The notes under the pieces: generated by a model
The model's input: the letters and a program-made list of their open reading frames with translations, nothing else
Told to the model about the DNA's origin: nothing
Databases searched by the model: none
Shown here: one piece after another, positions 1 through 18,514 of the stretch
How the letters are laid out: each line of letters begins with the position of its first letter
Position numbering within the stretch: position 1 is the stretch's first letter
Assembly: GCF_016865365.1 (NCBI RefSeq)
Contig: NZ_AP024469.1
Coordinates: forward strand, 3,936,501 to 4,000,500
Source of the DNA: Geobacter sp. SVR
GTDB lineage: Bacteria; Desulfobacterota; Desulfuromonadia; Geobacterales; Pseudopelobacteraceae
Reading direction: 5' to 3'
Length of the DNA stretch: 64,000 bases
Translations under genes and position numbers: made by a program

Positions 1-545
1 GCACTGGCCCCTGCCAGAACGCCACGCACCGTACCGCTGCTGTCGCGGATCGGCATGCCCATGGGGAGCAGTGGCACCTTCGAAAACCGCCCGACAACGG
101 GGCGGCCGATGGCAAACTCGCCGGTTACGGCTTTGCGGAAATAATCACGATCGGCAAGGGAGCCGGCAGTGGCCACTGTAACCGGGTAGCCGGCAAGGGG
201 AGTGCCGGCCGGATCCATGACGACCAGTCCCTGGGAAAAAAGGGGATGGAGCCGATACCGCTCGGCCAGCCACGACTGCATGCGGGCCGGATCGTTGAGA
301 TATTCCAGGGGAAGGGTTGCCGCCATGCGCTTCAGCAATTCGCGGCGTTCGGTGATGTTCCGGTCAACGTCCTGCGCCACATAGGTGGCCAGCGTCAGCA
401 ACTGCGACGAATTCATCCGGATGATGTCGTCGCGCAGGTACGTGCTCAGCAGCAGTGTCCAGCCGAGGGAGCCGGTGAACAGAATGAACAGGCCGAAAAC
501 GATTATTCGGGTGGTGACGCTGTGAAATTCAGGCCGAAGCCGCAT
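1..545 (-). CDS. dCACHE-type membrane sensor protein, N-terminal part (runs off left edge)
   Basis: Reading the minus strand from ATG at 545 gives an open frame to the window edge, 181 residues visible. A hydrophobic segment at about residues 13-33 is followed by an extracytoplasmic region with a helix rich in Gln/Asp (QDVDRNITERRELLKRMAA) and a PAS-like ligand-binding fold with DRDYFRKAVTGE and GRPVVGR, the pattern of double CACHE sensors. It closely resembles in layout the diguanylate cyclase at 30332-31921, which has [19 protein letters not shown] in the same place. The output domain (GGDEF, kinase or chemotaxis) lies outside the window and cannot be named. The ribosome binding site is weak. 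Confidence 0.8.
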   Translation of the reverse strand, partial: MRLRPEFHSVTTRIIVFGLFILFTGSLGWTLLLSTYLRDDIIRMNSSQLLTLATYVAQDVDRNITERRELLKRMAATLPLEYLNDPARMQSWLAERYRLHPLFSQGLVVMDPAGTPLAGYPVTVATAGSLADRDYFRKAVTGEFAIGRPVVGRFSKVPLLPMGMPIRDSSGTVRGVLAGAS

Positions 546-6766: not shown

Positions 6767-6910
6767 CAGCAGGTTGTTGAAAAACAGCCATCTCGTCGTC
6801 GTCCTCAAAAGCCCCATTGTGCGGCGTAGCGCTGTTTATGCCCCTGGGTACTACGCCTCCGCAGGGCTTTCTGCGGGTACGACGATCTGACTATTTTTGA
6901 ACAACCTGAG
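6767..6910 (-). mobile_element. MITE-like inverted-repeat element, copy 1 (truncated)
   Basis: Same element as at 13979-14144 but in reverse orientation: AGCAGGTTGTTGAAAAACAG at the left, the shared core with CCCCATTGTGCGGCGTAGCG, and ATTTTTGAACAACCTGAG at the right. The outer part of the right terminal repeat is missing and the left CTAG is changed to TCAG. Confidence 0.88.
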
Positions 6911-6942
6911 TGCTATAAGATACTCAGAAGAATCGTCAGCCA

Positions 6943-9050: not shown

Positions 9051-9686
9051 ATGAAGGTCGTGGCATTTAACGGCAGCCCCAACAAGGAGGGCAACACGTG
9101 GCATGCGCTGAAGATAGTGACTGCGGCACTGGAGCAGGAGGGGATTGAAACCGAGATCGTCCACGTCGGCAACAAGGCCGTCAGAGGCTGCGTTGCCTGC
9201 TACCAGTGCGTCAAGAACAAAAACGAGCAGTGCGTACTCCCCGGCGATCCGGTCAACGAGTGGATTCAGAAGATGAAACAGGCGGACGGCATCATCCTCG
9301 GCACCCCGGTACACTACTCCGCCATCGGCGGGACCATGAAATCGTTCCTGGATCGCGCCTTCTTCGTCACCGGCGTCAATGACAGTATGCTCCGCCACAA
9401 GGTCGGCGCCGCGGTGGTTGCGGTGCGGCGCTCCGGTGGAGTGCCGACCTTCGACCAGTTGAACAACTTCCTGAATTATGCCGAGATGCTGCTGCCGACC
9501 TCCAACTATTGGAACGTGATCCATGGCAGAACGCCGGGAGAAGTGGTCCAGGACCTGGAGGGGGTACAAATCATGCGGGTGCTGGGCAAAAACATGGCCT
9601 GGCTGATGAAACTGGTGGAGCATGGCAAGGGGGCCGTCGCCCCGCCGGAACGCGAGGCCAAAACCTTCTTCAGCTTTATCCACTAG
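9051..9686 (+). CDS. NADPH-dependent FMN reductase (flavodoxin-fold, iron-sulfur flavoprotein type)
   Basis: 211 residues. FNGSPNKEGNTWHALK at the N-terminus is the FMN phosphate loop; CVACYQCVKNKNEQCVLPGD follows, the cysteine arrangement of the NAD(P)H-dependent reductase/iron-sulfur flavoprotein family; GTPVHYSAIGGTMKSFLDR is the second FMN loop. Start at ATG 9051 with AAAGGAG upstream; the open frame extends to 8886 but crosses the divergent promoter. Divergent from the HxlR regulator. The stop codon TAG is part of the CTAG end of a mobile repeat. Confidence 0.87.
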   Translation: MKVVAFNGSPNKEGNTWHALKIVTAALEQEGIETEIVHVGNKAVRGCVACYQCVKNKNEQCVLPGDPVNEWIQKMKQADGIILGTPVHYSAIGGTMKSFLDRAFFVTGVNDSMLRHKVGAAVVAVRRSGGVPTFDQLNNFLNYAEMLLPTSNYWNVIHGRTPGEVVQDLEGVQIMRVLGKNMAWLMKLVEHGKGAVAPPEREAKTFFSFIH

Positions 9687-9794
9687 CAGACTGTTGAAAA
9701 ACTCAGGTTGTTCAAAAATAGTCAGATCGTCGCCCCCGCACAAGGGGGCTTTCGAGGACGGCGGCGAGCTGGCTGTTTTTCAACAACCTGCTAG
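9683..9794 (+). mobile_element. MITE-like inverted-repeat element, copy 2 (internally deleted)
   Basis: 112 bases from CTAG to CTAG. The terminal repeats CTAGCAGACTGTTGAAAAA and TTTTTCAACAACCTGCTAG match copy 3, but about 54 bases of the core are missing. The left CTAG supplies the stop codon of the FMN reductase gene. Confidence 0.88.
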
Positions 9795-11720: not shown

Positions 11721-11749
11721 TTGACAACGATCCGTGGAAATGCTAAGGA
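11721..11749 (+). promoter_or_regulatory. sigma70-type promoter candidate for the riboswitch-LDT-Lpp transcript
   Basis: TTGACA (11721-11726), 17-base spacer, TAAGGA (11744-11749). The -35 is perfect and the start would fall just before the first aptamer. Confidence 0.5.
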
Positions 11750-11773
11750 TGCCGGGACATACTGATCGATAGA

Positions 11774-11878
11774 CGATAATACTCAACCATCCGCGAGGAT
11801 GGGGCGGAAAGCCTACAGGGTCTCACTGAGACAGCCGGGATGCCGAAATATCAGACGATATTCGGGCCCGGCTTTTTT
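11774..11878 (+). ncRNA. GEMM-I (cyclic dinucleotide) riboswitch 1 with terminator
   Basis: Aptamer at about 11774-11850: a CCATCC-GCGA-GGATGG stem with a GNRA loop, then GGGGCGGAAAGCC, a second stem GTCTC-ACT-GAGAC and the closing AGCCGGGATGCCGAA, all landmarks of GEMM-I. The 3' strand GCCGGGATGCCGAAATATC also pairs with GATATTCGGGCCCGGC followed by TTTTTT, so ligand binding should prevent the terminator (an ON switch). GEMM-I RNAs bind c-di-GMP or, in several Geobacter members, 3',3'-cGAMP; the ligand here is not decided by eye. Confidence 0.85.
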
Positions 11879-11977
11879 GTGCCCGAAGACTCGCTCAGCA
11901 GCAAGGATGCCCATACGGGCGCTGCAGCATGCCGTTCACGTCGGTGACGGGAAACGGCACCACAACCTGATGATACA

Positions 11978-12081
11978 CGATAATACTCAACCATCCGCGA
12001 GGATGGGGCGGAAAGCCTACAGGGTCTCACCGAGACAGCCGGGTTGCCGAAATATCACGCGATATTCGGGCCCGGCTTTTT
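11978..12081 (+). ncRNA. GEMM-I (cyclic dinucleotide) riboswitch 2 with terminator
   Basis: Second copy of the same aptamer, almost identical in the binding core, with AGCCGGGTTGCCGAA at the 3' end and its own terminator (GCCGGGTTGCCGAAATATC with GATATTCGGGCCCGGC then TTTTT). It lies about 100 bases after the first and 35 bases before the L,D-transpeptidase start. Confidence 0.85.
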
Positions 12082-12115
12082 CATTTTCTACGTCAGGAAA
12101 GGTACTACACCAGAC

Positions 12116-13441
12116 ATGCACCGCACACACACCCCGTCACCTGTCGTCGCAGGGGTTCGACTCATGGCCCTGTCCCTGTCCATTCTGATCCTCAATGGAT
12201 GCGCCGCGATGAAAAATGTCTGGCAGGACCCGCTCCATCCTGAGGCGGAGATAGAGCGGAATCATTTTCCGGCTGACAAGGGAAATGATGTCATCGGCCG
12301 ACCGGCATCTCTTCGGCTTGAAGCGGGGGACACCCTCCCGGATATCGCACGGCACTTCGGCCTGGGGATCAATGCGCTCAGTGCCGCCAATCCCGGCGTG
12401 GACATGTGGGTTCCCGAAGCCGGAGAGCAGATCATACTGCCGCTCAGCTTCATCCTTCCGAATGCTCCCAGAAAGGGGATCGTGGTCAACCTGGCCACCA
12501 TGAGGCTCTTTCACTTCAAAGGGGATGGCGCGTCACCGACGGTGTCGACCTATCCGATCGGTATCGGGACGCGTGAGCGCCCCACCCCCATGGGCTCCAT
12601 GCGTGTGGCGCGCAAGACGGCCCGTCCCACCTGGAACGTACCCGCATCGATTGCCGAGGATCATCGCAAGAAGGGAGATCCCCTCCCCGCGAAGGTTCCG
12701 CCAGGCCCCCTGAATCCACTGGGGGAATACGCGCTCTATCTGAGTAAGGCGGGGTATCTGATCCATGGCACCAACAAACCGGCCAGCATAGGCCTCAAGG
12801 CGTCCAACGGCTGCCTGAGGCTCTATCCGGAAAACGTGAAGGTGCTTTTCAACGACACCCCGGTAGACACCTCGGTGCTGATCGTCAACCAGCCCTATCT
12901 GATCGGCCAGCGAGACGGCGTACTCTATCTGGAAGCCCACACCCCCCTGGAGAACCCGGGTGCCGGCGCCATCGAGCAGGAAAAAGTCAATGAGAAGCTG
13001 CGAAAACTCGAGAAGAAATCCGGGCGCCCGCTCGACTGGAAAAAGGTGCAGCAGGTCCAGGCCGAGGCCCGCGGGATTCCCGTTCCCATCTTCGCCATGG
13101 AACCGGGAAGGACGGTAGAGCCGACACGCCCCGTGGAGGTCGGGCATCCGGATAAACTGTACGGTAGCCCTGAATCGCCGGAATTGAAGCCGGGGGCGTG
13201 GCATGTCCTGGCCGCCGAAATGCGCGAGGAGATCGATGCCCGCAGGCTGGCCGCAATCATCAACCACCAGGGTCCGCAGATCCCGGCCAGGGTGCTGCCG
13301 AAGAGCGGCGGCTACCGGGTCGTCGCCGGCCCCTTCAATGATGCCGGTGAAGCCCGGGAAGCGGCCAGGAGGCTGAAAATAGACCTGGAGCTGGACGGCA
13401 TGGTGATCGAACCCGCCAGGGAGATTGCGATGCAGCACTGA
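12116..13441 (+). CDS. lipoprotein L,D-transpeptidase with LysM and SPOR-like domains
   Basis: 441 residues. Lipoprotein signal with ILILNGC (Cys29); LysM (about 66-110, LRLEAGDTLPDIARHFGLG); YkuD catalytic domain (about 121-259) with His217 in IHGTN and Cys233 in KASNGCLRLYPE, the ErfK/YbiS signature; C-terminal SPOR-like repeat (about 359-435). It should act in the periplasm, cross-linking peptidoglycan or joining a lipoprotein to it. ATG 12116 was preferred over ATG 12164 because the latter lacks a charged signal-peptide start. Two riboswitches precede it and an Lpp-type lipoprotein gene follows 85 bases later. Confidence 0.88.
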   Translation: MHRTHTPSPVVAGVRLMALSLSILILNGCAAMKNVWQDPLHPEAEIERNHFPADKGNDVIGRPASLRLEAGDTLPDIARHFGLGINALSAANPGVDMWVPEAGEQIILPLSFILPNAPRKGIVVNLATMRLFHFKGDGASPTVSTYPIGIGTRERPTPMGSMRVARKTARPTWNVPASIAEDHRKKGDPLPAKVPPGPLNPLGEYALYLSKAGYLIHGTNKPASIGLKASNGCLRLYPENVKVLFNDTPVDTSVLIVNQPYLIGQRDGVLYLEAHTPLENPGAGAIEQEKVNEKLRKLEKKSGRPLDWKKVQQVQAEARGIPVPIFAMEPGRTVEPTRPVEVGHPDKLYGSPESPELKPGAWHVLAAEMREEIDARRLAAIINHQGPQIPARVLPKSGGYRVVAGPFNDAGEAREAARRLKIDLELDGMVIEPAREIAMQH

Positions 13442-13526: not shown

Positions 13527-13829
13527 ATGAAGACACGTACCAACGTTATAGCGATAGTGGCTGTTCTCTCAGCGATGCTGACCGGTTGTGCCACATCCAG
13601 GCAGATGGAAAAGGTGGAAGCCGATCAAAAGCTGCTTGATACAAAAGTCGAGCAGGCACTGCAGAACGCGCAGGCTGCCAAGGCAGCAGCCGATGAGGCC
13701 AAGTTGAAGGCGGATGACGCCACCAACCGCGCCGAACAGGCCGAAAAGGCCGCTCAGGAACGGGAACGGATCGCCAATGAAAAGATGCAGCGGGCTGACT
13801 CCGCTTTCCTGAAATCGATGCGCAAGTAG
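13527..13829 (+). CDS. Lpp/OprI-type alanine-zipper lipoprotein
   Basis: 100 residues. Lipobox MLTGC with Cys21, then an unbroken heptad helix rich in Ala (QNAQAAKAAADEAKLKADDA) and a C-terminal SMRK. The layout is that of Braun lipoprotein: lipid anchor, trimeric alanine zipper, and a terminal Arg-Lys whose Lys is joined to diaminopimelate by an L,D-transpeptidase in E. coli. The gene follows an ErfK/YbiS-type L,D-transpeptidase, which supports that role. Strong AAAGGAG site before ATG 13527. The length is somewhat greater than E. coli Lpp (78 residues). Confidence 0.82.
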   Translation: MKTRTNVIAIVAVLSAMLTGCATSRQMEKVEADQKLLDTKVEQALQNAQAAKAAADEAKLKADDATNRAEQAEKAAQERERIANEKMQRADSAFLKSMRK

Positions 13830-13889: not shown

Positions 13890-13978
13890 TCGCCGCCTGA
13901 GTCCGTTCGGGCATTCGCACAAGCAATCTTTCATGCCGGCAGACCATCACAGGGTGGAAGAGCCGAGGGCACCTATGA

Positions 13979-14144
13979 CTAGCAGACTGTTGAAAAACTC
14001 AGGTTGTTCAAAAATAGTCAGATCGTCGCACCCGCAGAGAGCCCTGCGGAGGCGTAGTACCCCGCAGGGCATAAACAGCGCTACGCCGCACAATGGGGCT
14101 TTCGAGGACGGCGGCGAGATGGCTGTTTTTCAACAACCTGCTAG
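13979..14144 (+). mobile_element. MITE-like inverted-repeat element, copy 3 (full length)
   Basis: 166 bases bounded by CTAG. Ends are CTAGCAGACTGTTGAAAAA and its near-complement TTTTTCAACAACCTGCTAG. No coding capacity of its own. The CTAG/TA boundaries are those favoured by IS630/Tc1-mariner transposases, so it is probably a non-autonomous element of that group. Confidence 0.88.
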
Positions 14145-15060
14145 AACGGGCAGGCATCTTTCCCGCCTCTTCTGTGGCGCACTGACGCTGCTGCTCCTCA
14201 ACGGCTGCAGCTATTTCCGCGACACCTCCCCCTTCACCGAAGCGAACGATCTCTTCAGCAAGGGGAATTACAGCGCCTCCCTGGAAAAGTATGAGCAGAT
14301 AGGTGAAAAGCTCCCCGCGGCGCGCGACCGGGTATTGTTCGAAAAGGGGGTCATCCTTGCCTATCCCAAGAATGGTCAGAAGGATTATCAGCAGGCCCTG
14401 GACTGTTTCCAGCAGCTCGTCAGGGACTATCCTGAGAGCCCCTACCGGCAGAACAGCGAGGCGCTGATCTTCACCATAAGCAATGTCGTGCTCAAGGACG
14501 CGACGATTGCCACGCAGCAGGCACAGATCGACACGCTCCACCGTGAGCTTGCCGGCAGGGAGGGAGAGATTGCGGCACTGCAGGAAAATATCAAGGCCCT
14601 CAAGCAGAAGGTTTTCGCCGTCGCCACCCGGAGCGGAGCGGTGGACAGGATTTTGATAGAAAAGAACGAGCGGCGGCTGACGTTACTTGCCAAGGGCGAG
14701 GCGGTCAAAACCTACCGGATCGCCCTGGGGGGCAACCCGGTTGGCCCGAAGGAACGGCAGGGGGACAATAAGACTCCGGAGGGGATCTACACCATCGATG
14801 CCAGAAATAAGGACAGCGGCTATCACCTGTCGCTGCACATTTCCTATCCGAACGAGAAAGACAGAAAGCGGGCACGGGAACTGGGAGTCTCTCCCGGGGG
14901 GGATGTCATGATCCACGGCATCAAGAACGGTTTCTCATGGGTCGGTAATGCCCACGCCGAAGTGGACTGGACCAAAGGGTGCATTGCCGTGAGCAACGAG
15001 GAGATAGAGGAAATAGCACGAGTTGCGTCCAGCGGCACGATCGTTGAGATACGGCCGTAG
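14119..15060 (+). CDS. lipoprotein L,D-transpeptidase with TPR-like and coiled-coil region
   Basis: 313 residues from ATG 14119. Signal peptide with LLLLNGC lipobox (Cys30); helical repeats like TPR (about 40-115, NDLFSKGNYSASLEKYEQ, LVRDYPESPYRQNSEA); coiled coil (about 125-165); YkuD domain (about 175-313) with IHGIKNG and DWTKGCIAVSNEE, the catalytic His and Cys. The only in-frame ATG near the signal peptide lies inside the mobile element 13979-14144, so the first 9 residues are element-derived; the frame is also open to 13933. A truncated copy lies at 17816-18514. Confidence 0.8.
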   Translation: MAVFQQPARTGRHLSRLFCGALTLLLLNGCSYFRDTSPFTEANDLFSKGNYSASLEKYEQIGEKLPAARDRVLFEKGVILAYPKNGQKDYQQALDCFQQLVRDYPESPYRQNSEALIFTISNVVLKDATIATQQAQIDTLHRELAGREGEIAALQENIKALKQKVFAVATRSGAVDRILIEKNERRLTLLAKGEAVKTYRIALGGNPVGPKERQGDNKTPEGIYTIDARNKDSGYHLSLHISYPNEKDRKRARELGVSPGGDVMIHGIKNGFSWVGNAHAEVDWTKGCIAVSNEEIEEIARVASSGTIVEIRP

Positions 15061-16652: not shown

Positions 16653-17566
16653 GTCTTGAAATATCATTTTTTGCCACAATTGATGACCTTGCTGATCGTC
16701 GTGTAGTGAACCCCGAGTGCCTGCGCTATCTCCGTCAGCGTATAGCCGTATGTGCCATAGGCGTGGCGGATCAACCGGTTACGCTCCTGCTTATCAGCTA
16801 CAGCCTCCAGTAAGAAAATCTCGGCGGCAGCGGGACGACCCACATGGCGCTGCTGTCGTGGGATCTCCCTGATGGTTTCTCTTCCGCCTATCATTTCCTT
16901 CGCGTTTTGAATGAACTCTTCGGTCCCCAAGATTATCTGCCCTGCAAGCTTGGCCCATGGCGATACGCTCGCCGCCATTCCCTCTTTCACGAATCGACGA
17001 TACAGGCGGCGAGACTCCGACAGCGAAGAGGAAAAATTGGCAAGGAGCCAATCTGTACAGAGAAACGCCGGTACATCAGCTTTGCCGATGGTAGGGAGAT
17101 AACTGCTCCATCGGTATTGCTCAGGTTGCTCGACTATCCCTGCGCGCACAGTGTTTAGCACAACATAACGGCAGAGCTCAATAAGGTGACTCTCCTTCTC
17201 AACCAGAACCGACTTGAACCGTCCCTTGAAAACGTGCCCATCCTTGCCGTGCTTTCGATTGTATGCCTGGGTGTAGACGCCGTTCAAATGGCGCATCCCG
17301 GCAGAGAGATTACTATCCTGGGTTTCAATGAGAAGGTGGTAGTGATTATCCATGAGGCAGTAGGCGTGGCAAAGCCAATTGAAGCGCTTCACCACTTGGC
17401 CGAGGACATTCAGGAATATGTGACGGTCATCGTCATCTTCGAAGATGGCTGAACGCGCATTGCCGCGAGAAGTTACGTGATAGACGGCACCGGGGAATTC
17501 TATGCGTAAAGGGCGAGCCATGGGGGGATTATAGCGTGAAATGCTTATATTTCAAGACCTGACCCC
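16645..17566 (-). mobile_element. RAYT (REP-associated transposase) unit with 20-bp inverted ends
   Basis: GGGGTCAGGTCTTGAAATAT at 16645-16664 and its exact complement ATATTTCAAGACCTGACCCC at 17547-17566 bracket the transposase gene. The same end appears again at 17790-17809, and a 26-bp tandem repeat of the right end lies at 17551-17602. Confidence 0.8.
16664..17521 (-). CDS. REP-associated tyrosine (Y1, HUH) transposase with C-terminal HTH
   Basis: 285 residues. N-terminal MARPLRIEFPGAVYHVTSRG is the start typical of this TnpA_REP family; HUH metal site His60-Tyr-His62 in MDNHYHLLIE; candidate catalytic Tyr119 in ELCRYVVLNTVRAG; GHVFKGRFKSVLVEK between. The C-terminus has a DnaA/HTH-like helix pair (LTEIAQALGVHYTTISKVI). 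It would nick single-stranded REP sequences. The gene is intact, suggesting recent activity. Confidence 0.88.
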   Translation of the reverse strand: MARPLRIEFPGAVYHVTSRGNARSAIFEDDDDRHIFLNVLGQVVKRFNWLCHAYCLMDNHYHLLIETQDSNLSAGMRHLNGVYTQAYNRKHGKDGHVFKGRFKSVLVEKESHLIELCRYVVLNTVRAGIVEQPEQYRWSSYLPTIGKADVPAFLCTDWLLANFSSSLSESRRLYRRFVKEGMAASVSPWAKLAGQIILGTEEFIQNAKEMIGGRETIREIPRQQRHVGRPAAAEIFLLEAVADKQERNRLIRHAYGTYGYTLTEIAQALGVHYTTISKVINCGKK

Positions 17567-17602
17567 GCGGACTCATTCAAGACCTGACCCCGCGGACTCA
17601 TT
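17551..17602. repeat. 26-bp direct repeat of REP end
   Basis: TTCAAGACCTGACCCCGCGG plus ACTCAT, twice in tandem (17551-17576 and 17577-17602). Confidence 0.85.
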
Positions 17603-17764
17603 GTAGGCGTGACAAAGCCAGTTAAAGCGTTTCACTGCCTGGCCGAGGACACTCAGGAATAGTTGACGGTCATCGTCATCGTCGAAGATGGCTGAACGTG
17701 CGTTACCACGAGAGGTTATGTGATAGACGGCACCGGGGAATTCTATGCGTAAAGGACGAGCCAT
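17603..17764 (-). pseudogene. remnant of a second RAYT transposase (N-terminal part only)
   Basis: From ATG 17764 the sequence MARPLRIEFPGAVYHITSRG and the following 33 residues match the intact neighbour, then the frame runs into the repeat at 17577-17602 (SAGSGLE) and stops. The HUH motif and catalytic Tyr are missing, so it is inactive. Confidence 0.8.
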
Positions 17765-17815: not shown

Positions 17816-18514
17816 TTTTCCAAGAATGGGCAGAAGGATTATCAGCAGGCCCTGGGCTGTTTCCAGCAGCTCGTCAGGGACTACCCTGAGAGCCCCTACC
17901 GGCAGAACAGCGAGACGATGATCTTCACCTTAAGCAATGTCGTGCTCAAGGACGCGACGATTGCCACGCAGCAGGCACAGATCGACACGCTCCGCCGTGA
18001 GCTTGCCGGCAGGGAGGGAGAGATTGCGGCACTGCAGGAAAATATCAAGGCCCTCAAGCAGAAGGTTTTCGTCGTTGCCACCCGGAGCGGAGCGGTGGAC
18101 AGGATTTTGATAGAAAAGAACGAGCGGCGGCTGACGTTGCTTGCCAAGGGCGAGGCACTCAAAACCTACAGGATCGCCCTGGGGGGCAACCCGGTTGGCC
18201 CGAAGGAGCGGCAGGGGGATAATAAGACTCCGGAGGGGATCTACGTCATCGATGCCAGAAATAAGGACAGCGGCTATCACCTGTCGCTGCACATTTCCTA
18301 TCCGAACGAGAAAGACAGAAAGCGGGCACGGGCACTGGGGGTCTCTCCAGGCGGGGATGTCATGATCCACGGCATCAAGAACGGTTTCTCGTGGGTCGGT
18401 AATGCCCACGCCGAAGTAGACTGGACCAAAGGATGCATTGCCGTGAGCGACGAGGAGATAGAGGAAATAGCACGAGTTGCGCCCAGCGGCACGATCGTTG
18501 AGATACGGCCGTAG
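17816..18514 (+). pseudogene. 5'-truncated copy of the L,D-transpeptidase at 14119-15060
   Basis: Homology to the gene at 14119 starts at about 14365 (SKNGQKDYQQAL) and runs through its stop and about 100 bases beyond. The catalytic His (IHGIKNG) and Cys (DWTKGCIAVSDEE) are kept, but the signal peptide, lipobox and first helical repeats are gone, replaced by RAYT sequence. The first ATG is at 17918, which would give a 198-residue cytoplasmic protein without an obvious Shine-Dalgarno. Most likely a dead duplicate; differences from the parent are few and largely conservative. Confidence 0.82.

Follow-up and report, generated by a model that had tools for sequence, protein, structure and literature searches.

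Why should an operon for cell-wall proteins in Geobacter sp. SVR be preceded by two nearly identical cyclic dinucleotide riboswitches, which ligand would they recognize, and what would the second copy add to the first? These questions were addressed in a stretch of 64,000 nucleotides of the genome (referred to below as the window) and in the corresponding loci of related bacteria. The explanation that we consider very probable as a whole is that the doublet consists of GEMM-Ib RNAs acting as serial transcriptional ON switches, driven by cGAMP, on an operon for tethering of the outer membrane to the wall.

Two aptamer–terminator units behind a predicted promoter

Two matches to RF01051 (c-di-GMP-I, GEMM-I) were found by Rfam on the plus strand of the window, copy 1 at 11771-11847 (39.0 bits) and copy 2 at 11975-12051 (42.6 bits), both exceeding the curated gathering score of 35 bits; besides RF01051, no RNA family reached its own cut-off in the window. 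Together, the units make up a direct repeat of 110 nt (11768-11877 and 11972-12081, spacing 204) with 95 % identity. A model built from the GEMM-I RNAs of Geobacter sp. SVR itself assigned them 90.0 and 88.0 bits, scores that are not independent because both copies were part of its training set. Beside the ligand site, copy 1 has A and copy 2 has U, which in copy 1 makes a non-standard pair in the RF01051 model, and the A of copy 1 is also present in other GEMM-Ib RNAs of this genome. Among relatives, 96.8 % of cells in the GEMM-I fold were paired over 62 distinct sequences, versus 28–56 % in slid controls. Compensatory change was detected in 25 cells in which both sides differed, all of them in the P1b helix, and none of 500 shuffles scored as high, in an alignment that was fitted to the structure and in which most pairs are invariant.

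Each copy is followed on the plus strand by an intrinsic terminator of its own, the hairpin of which is built from the 3' strand of the preceding aptamer. Terminator 1 (11833-11879) comprises a hairpin at 11833-11873 with an MFE of -22.0 kcal/mol (z -4.1) and shares AGCCGGG..GCCGAAATATC with the aptamer, and terminator 2 (12037-12083) comprises a hairpin at 12037-12077 with an MFE of -23.5 kcal/mol (z -3.3); a T tract follows both, and in neither case was any of 200 shuffles as good. In RNAfold predictions for transcripts that stop short of the terminator's second half, the 5' GATA pairs with the 3' TATC (outer P1), enclosing P1b and P2, whereas the terminator fold prevails for the whole unit, and the two structures are therefore predicted to be mutually exclusive. 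A generic terminator scan of the window detected neither terminator, since their stems are interrupted. In related loci, a T run lies at the expected distance in 77 of the 78 GEMM matches upstream of the operon. The description given in the earlier note, of two complete tandem GEMM-I riboswitches each with a terminator resting on the aptamer 3' strand, is thus upheld by both the Rfam scores and the folding. A chance or poor match to GEMM-I is ruled out by the Rfam scores, the terminator z-scores and the conservation. In Geobacter, the GEMM-Ib switches located before pilM and pgcA (GSU1761) belong to this aptamer class and share the ON layout in which aptamer and terminator compete, but they differ from the present locus in being single and in controlling other genes; the pilM riboswitch, identical in layout, has been shown to be an ON switch (PMC9262584).

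A sigma-70-type promoter, TTGACA-17 nt-TAAGGA with TG just before the -10 element, is predicted on the plus strand at 11721-11749, about 21 nt upstream of copy 1, and is conserved at this place, although a stricter generic promoter scan did not detect the element. Of 46 GEMM-Ib loci, 31 had a match to the pattern TTGAC[AG]-15..19-TA...[TA] just upstream of their first copy (0.7 % in shuffles), while only 1 of 29 doublets had one between the copies, which leaves a separate promoter for each copy unsupported. The presence of a promoter before copy 1 and the near absence of one between the copies therefore place both switches in series, and the simplest reading of the sequence is that one transcript would have to pass both.

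A wall operon with two transpeptidases and a lysine-ended lipoprotein

All three genes of the operon lie on the plus strand. The first (12116-13441) is predicted to encode a lipoprotein-like L,D-transpeptidase with the lipobox LNGC, a YkuD domain over cut-off (PF03734, 4.7e-20) and a C-terminal SPOR domain (PF05036, 3.2e-11); its active site, HGTNKPASIGLKASNGCLR, contains the YkuD His and the SxGC motif, and HGTNKP..(S/T)NGC.R is found in every displayed ortholog sequence that spans the site. The second (13527-13829) encodes an alanine-zipper lipoprotein (PF11839, 3e-16) that has the sequence features of a murein lipoprotein, namely a lipobox (LTGC), an alpha-helical zipper and a C-terminal lysine (SMRK). 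The ending SM[RKMQ]K is present in all full-length orthologs read, except in L061, where the frame ends differently. The third gene (13933-15060) encodes a second L,D-transpeptidase lipoprotein, with a TPR-like N-terminal part, the lipobox LLNGC and YkuD (PF03734, 6e-19). The transpeptidase and lipoprotein that the earlier note had described as an L,D-transpeptidase/Lpp pair are thus present, but PF11839 is an OprI-type relative of Lpp rather than the Lpp family itself, and the second YkuD gene had been omitted.

A repeat at 13930-14110, between the lipoprotein and second transpeptidase genes, recurs in the window at 6800-6911 and 9682-9760; it probably lengthens the apparent reading frame of the third gene, whose true start probably lies downstream of this insertion. 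At 17820-18514, the TPR/YkuD transpeptidase gene is present a second time in truncated form (97 % identity to 14366-14665 over 300 nt), adjoining copies of a REP-type (Y1) transposase at 16664-17521 and 17573-17764.

As in the Lpp system of E. coli, a lipobox, a zipper and a C-terminal lysine in a protein encoded beside L,D-transpeptidases predict an anchored lipoprotein. By this analogy, the product of 13527-13829 is likely to be a murein-lipoprotein-like substrate of the transpeptidases, which would cross-link it to peptidoglycan. YkuD enzymes also form 3-3 cross-links and attach other proteins, and the presence of SPOR points to glycan that is septal or denuded, both of which would suit an operon for general wall repair or 3-3 cross-linking in which the lipoprotein would not serve as a substrate for anchoring. 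Such a role is rather unlikely, given that the lysine-ended zipper lipoprotein is encoded directly between two transpeptidases in most relatives and that its terminal SM[RK]K shows almost no variation across several phyla.

Ligand specificity, signal source and serial control

In an alignment with the other GEMM-I RNAs of the genome, the specificity position, which we take to be the equivalent of A20 in Vc2, is A in both window copies; they read AATACTCAACC, and the c-di-GMP-type members of the genome read AAAGGCAAAC. Both copies are therefore assigned to GEMM-Ib, the cGAMP type, and we infer from the sequence that both have 3',3'-cGAMP as their ligand, which narrows the choice between c-di-GMP and 3',3'-cGAMP that had been left by the earlier note. 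Binding of cGAMP by GEMM-I RNAs with A20, as well as their ON mechanism, has been shown experimentally elsewhere, and A20G in a Geobacter GEMM-Ib is reported to change the ligand from cGAMP to c-di-GMP (PMC6456294). The Geobacter sp. SVR genome (4.72 Mb, one contig) contains 14 GEMM-I RNAs over the cut-off, ten of the A type and four of the G type; in contrast to the latter, the window copies carry the base that excludes them from the c-di-GMP-type aptamers.

The genome encodes about 30 GGDEF domains, and exactly one of those aligned (L101) has the Hypr signature GHPVGS, in which Ser replaces the guanine-contacting Asp (GS for GD). Its closest solved structure, at 205 bits (131 bits for the next entry), is 6d9m, in which lysozyme is fused to a response-receiver diguanylate cyclase that contains a GAF domain and likewise has the Ser. 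A lysozyme fusion of a G. metallireducens GGDEF protein and the role of the Hypr serine are described in the same paper (PMC6456294), and we read 6d9m as the G. metallireducens GacA construct. Since one Hypr (GacA-type) GGDEF protein is encoded, a cGAMP source is present in the genome, and this protein probably makes the signal.

It is quite improbable that the two RNAs respond to c-di-GMP, alone or alongside cGAMP, instead of being specific for cGAMP. The Rfam family is named c-di-GMP-I, and with 31 GGDEF domains in the genome c-di-GMP is likely to be abundant. Some Geobacter GEMM-Ib RNAs bind both ligands, among them the OmcST switch, which also responds to both, so A20 is no guarantee of selectivity. 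Nevertheless, A occupies the specificity position not only in both window copies but in all 47 readable copies before the operon in relatives (one more is cut off), and the corresponding operon of G. sulfurreducens depends on gacA.

With cGAMP as the expected ligand of both copies, the locus combines two aptamer–terminator units, the same specificity base in each and a predicted promoter before the first only. A two-input AND gate, which had been offered as an alternative to a steeper response, is ruled out since the two copies do not differ in type, and the arrangement would therefore be pseudo-cooperative, with a steeper and less leaky response. This term has been applied to single-ligand tandems in a catalogue of c-di-GMP-I RNAs comprising 347 doublets and 12 triplets (PMC9481103). 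Doublets of the same class in Bacillus have been measured to be less leaky and more digital (PMC4759541); in the triple-tandem Bc3-5 of Bacillus thuringiensis, which likewise consists of complete serial switches each with a terminator, leakage fell and the response became more digital as copies were added (PMC4759541), although Bc3-5 is of the c-di-GMP type and belongs to a Gram-positive surface-protein operon. A product model of two identical switches agrees with less leak and a sharper response, lowering EC90/EC10 from about 80 to 44–56 and roughly squaring the dynamic range.

In the proposed mechanism, RNA polymerase would start at the one promoter (about 11721-11749) and reach aptamer 1. 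Without cGAMP, the 3' strand of this aptamer (AGCCGGG...GCCGAAATATC) would pass into terminator 1 and most transcripts would end, while with cGAMP the strand would be kept in the aptamer and transcription would proceed to copy 2, where the decision would be repeated. Only transcripts that had passed twice would reach the genes for the L,D-transpeptidase, the lysine-ended alanine-zipper lipoprotein and the second L,D-transpeptidase. As both stages need the same ligand, the leak would be multiplied down and the response would become steeper. Switching by the two window copies is proposed by analogy with the characterized members of the class.

Other GEMM-I RNAs of the A type in this genome precede genes for a Na+/H+ exchanger-like protein (L013:1657-2925), a polysaccharide-lyase-like secreted protein (L005:1733-2677) and an fn3 lipoprotein (L008:1609-3075), and no CxxCH motif was present in any first downstream reading frame that was seen up to 1.5 kb from the genome's 16 GEMM-I matches. 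The only other GEMM-Ib doublet (G000:C1:2351121-2351221 and 2351294-2351372; L010, L006) is located before an NlpC/P60 gene, for which a search of other family genomes returned only partial matches of about 40–60 %, apparently to a different paralog. This doublet, too, precedes a peptidoglycan gene, and more speculatively it may be wall outputs that especially need leak-free control.

Age of the doublet and its counterparts in Geobacter

A search with the transpeptidase in 76 family genomes gave a match at the threshold used in 35. In all 29 other Geobacteraceae genomes in which the locus was read, GEMM-I precedes the operon in the same orientation, as two copies in 19 and as a single copy in 10. 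Among L019, L020 and L022, first copies are 96–97 % identical to first copies and second to second, while the two copies within a locus are only 80–84 % identical; the doublet therefore predates those species, with both of its copies being retained. A recent, meaningless duplication is ruled out by this positional orthology across species. That only one copy functions, the other being a recent tandem duplication in neutral drift, would fit the single copy in 10 of 29 relatives and the near identity of the window copies over 110 nt, but is highly improbable in view of the doublets in 19 of 29 species, the terminator and T tract in 77 of 78 matches and a position-specific orthology that predates species splits.

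Relatives usually have the three genes in the same order (transpeptidase, zipper lipoprotein, second transpeptidase), whereas in certain lineages farther away the gene for the second transpeptidase is instead found about 2.3 kb upstream. No GEMM was present in 28 of the 46 named close-ortholog records, which are mostly from Nitrospirota, Desulfobacterota and similar groups and of which a few are short, and relatives outside the Geobacteraceae group have no switch before the operon, except for two with a divergent form. As the operon occurs without GEMM in records of Desulfobacterota and Nitrospirota, the riboswitch looks like an addition to an older operon. Judging from these sequences, the Geobacter lineage seems to have placed an existing wall module under riboswitch control and to have retained the switch since, in most cases as two copies.

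In the divergent form, which was observed ahead of this operon in two MAGs of Deltaproteobacteria (L026:5829-5913 and L023:825-911), the RNA is GEMM-like and its 3' half is normal, but its 5' half is altered (ATAG[AG]TGGACCGATCACAGGGG), and G is aligned at the specificity position. It scored weakly in the own-genome GEMM-I model (39.8 and 32.1 bits, respectively) and had no Rfam match, and a pattern search for the altered 5' half found none in 277 genomes of the class. It may be a variant that recognizes a different ligand, or else a copy in decay.

The earlier note considered control of such an output by a cyclic dinucleotide to be unusual, a view that is not supported, given the recurrence of the pairing across Geobacteraceae and the case of G. 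sulfurreducens, where, according to Hallberg et al. 2019 (PMC6456294), GSU0181-0183 ('lipoprotein transpeptidases') are GEMM-Ib/GacA-dependent and show a 16-fold drop on gacA deletion. GSU0182 is annotated as 'murein lipoprotein' (PMC7962754, PMC11934962), and GSU0181-0183 are therefore a transpeptidase, a murein lipoprotein and a transpeptidase, as in the window. The annotations in these papers make it a strong inference that the two operons are equivalent, with GacA dependence reported in the other species and the doublet seen directly in Geobacter sp. SVR. Two serial cGAMP riboswitches before one operon also occur in G. sulfurreducens as the tandem GEMM-Ib of GSU2885 (OmcAHG), where RNA beyond the second switch is lost without gacA; there the output is outer-membrane cytochromes, whereas here it is wall proteins. 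The locus is accordingly a well-conserved further example of a known arrangement and not a new kind of system, and what is new is how deeply it is conserved and how old the doublet is, together with the upstream promoter that both copies share and the invariant lysine at the C-terminus of the lipoprotein.

The likely output of the switches would be that more of an outer-membrane lipoprotein is anchored covalently to peptidoglycan, and this anchoring is likely to belong to the cGAMP programme that serves contact with particulate metal oxides. More tentatively, cGAMP, the contact signal of mineral respiration, may have a conserved second arm devoted to wall remodelling, in which a selected doublet provides sharp control of covalent outer-membrane tethering. 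For a part of the cGAMP regulon of G. sulfurreducens that had been called 'uncharacterized', this yields the testable claim that cGAMP controls a tether of L,D-transpeptidase and lysine-ended lipoprotein, and the single and doubled switches found across relatives offer a natural series for assessing the value of a second identical switch. Any surprise would lie in the biology of the output, in cGAMP control of covalent outer-membrane tethering, should it hold, and in the reason why this output usually has two switches.
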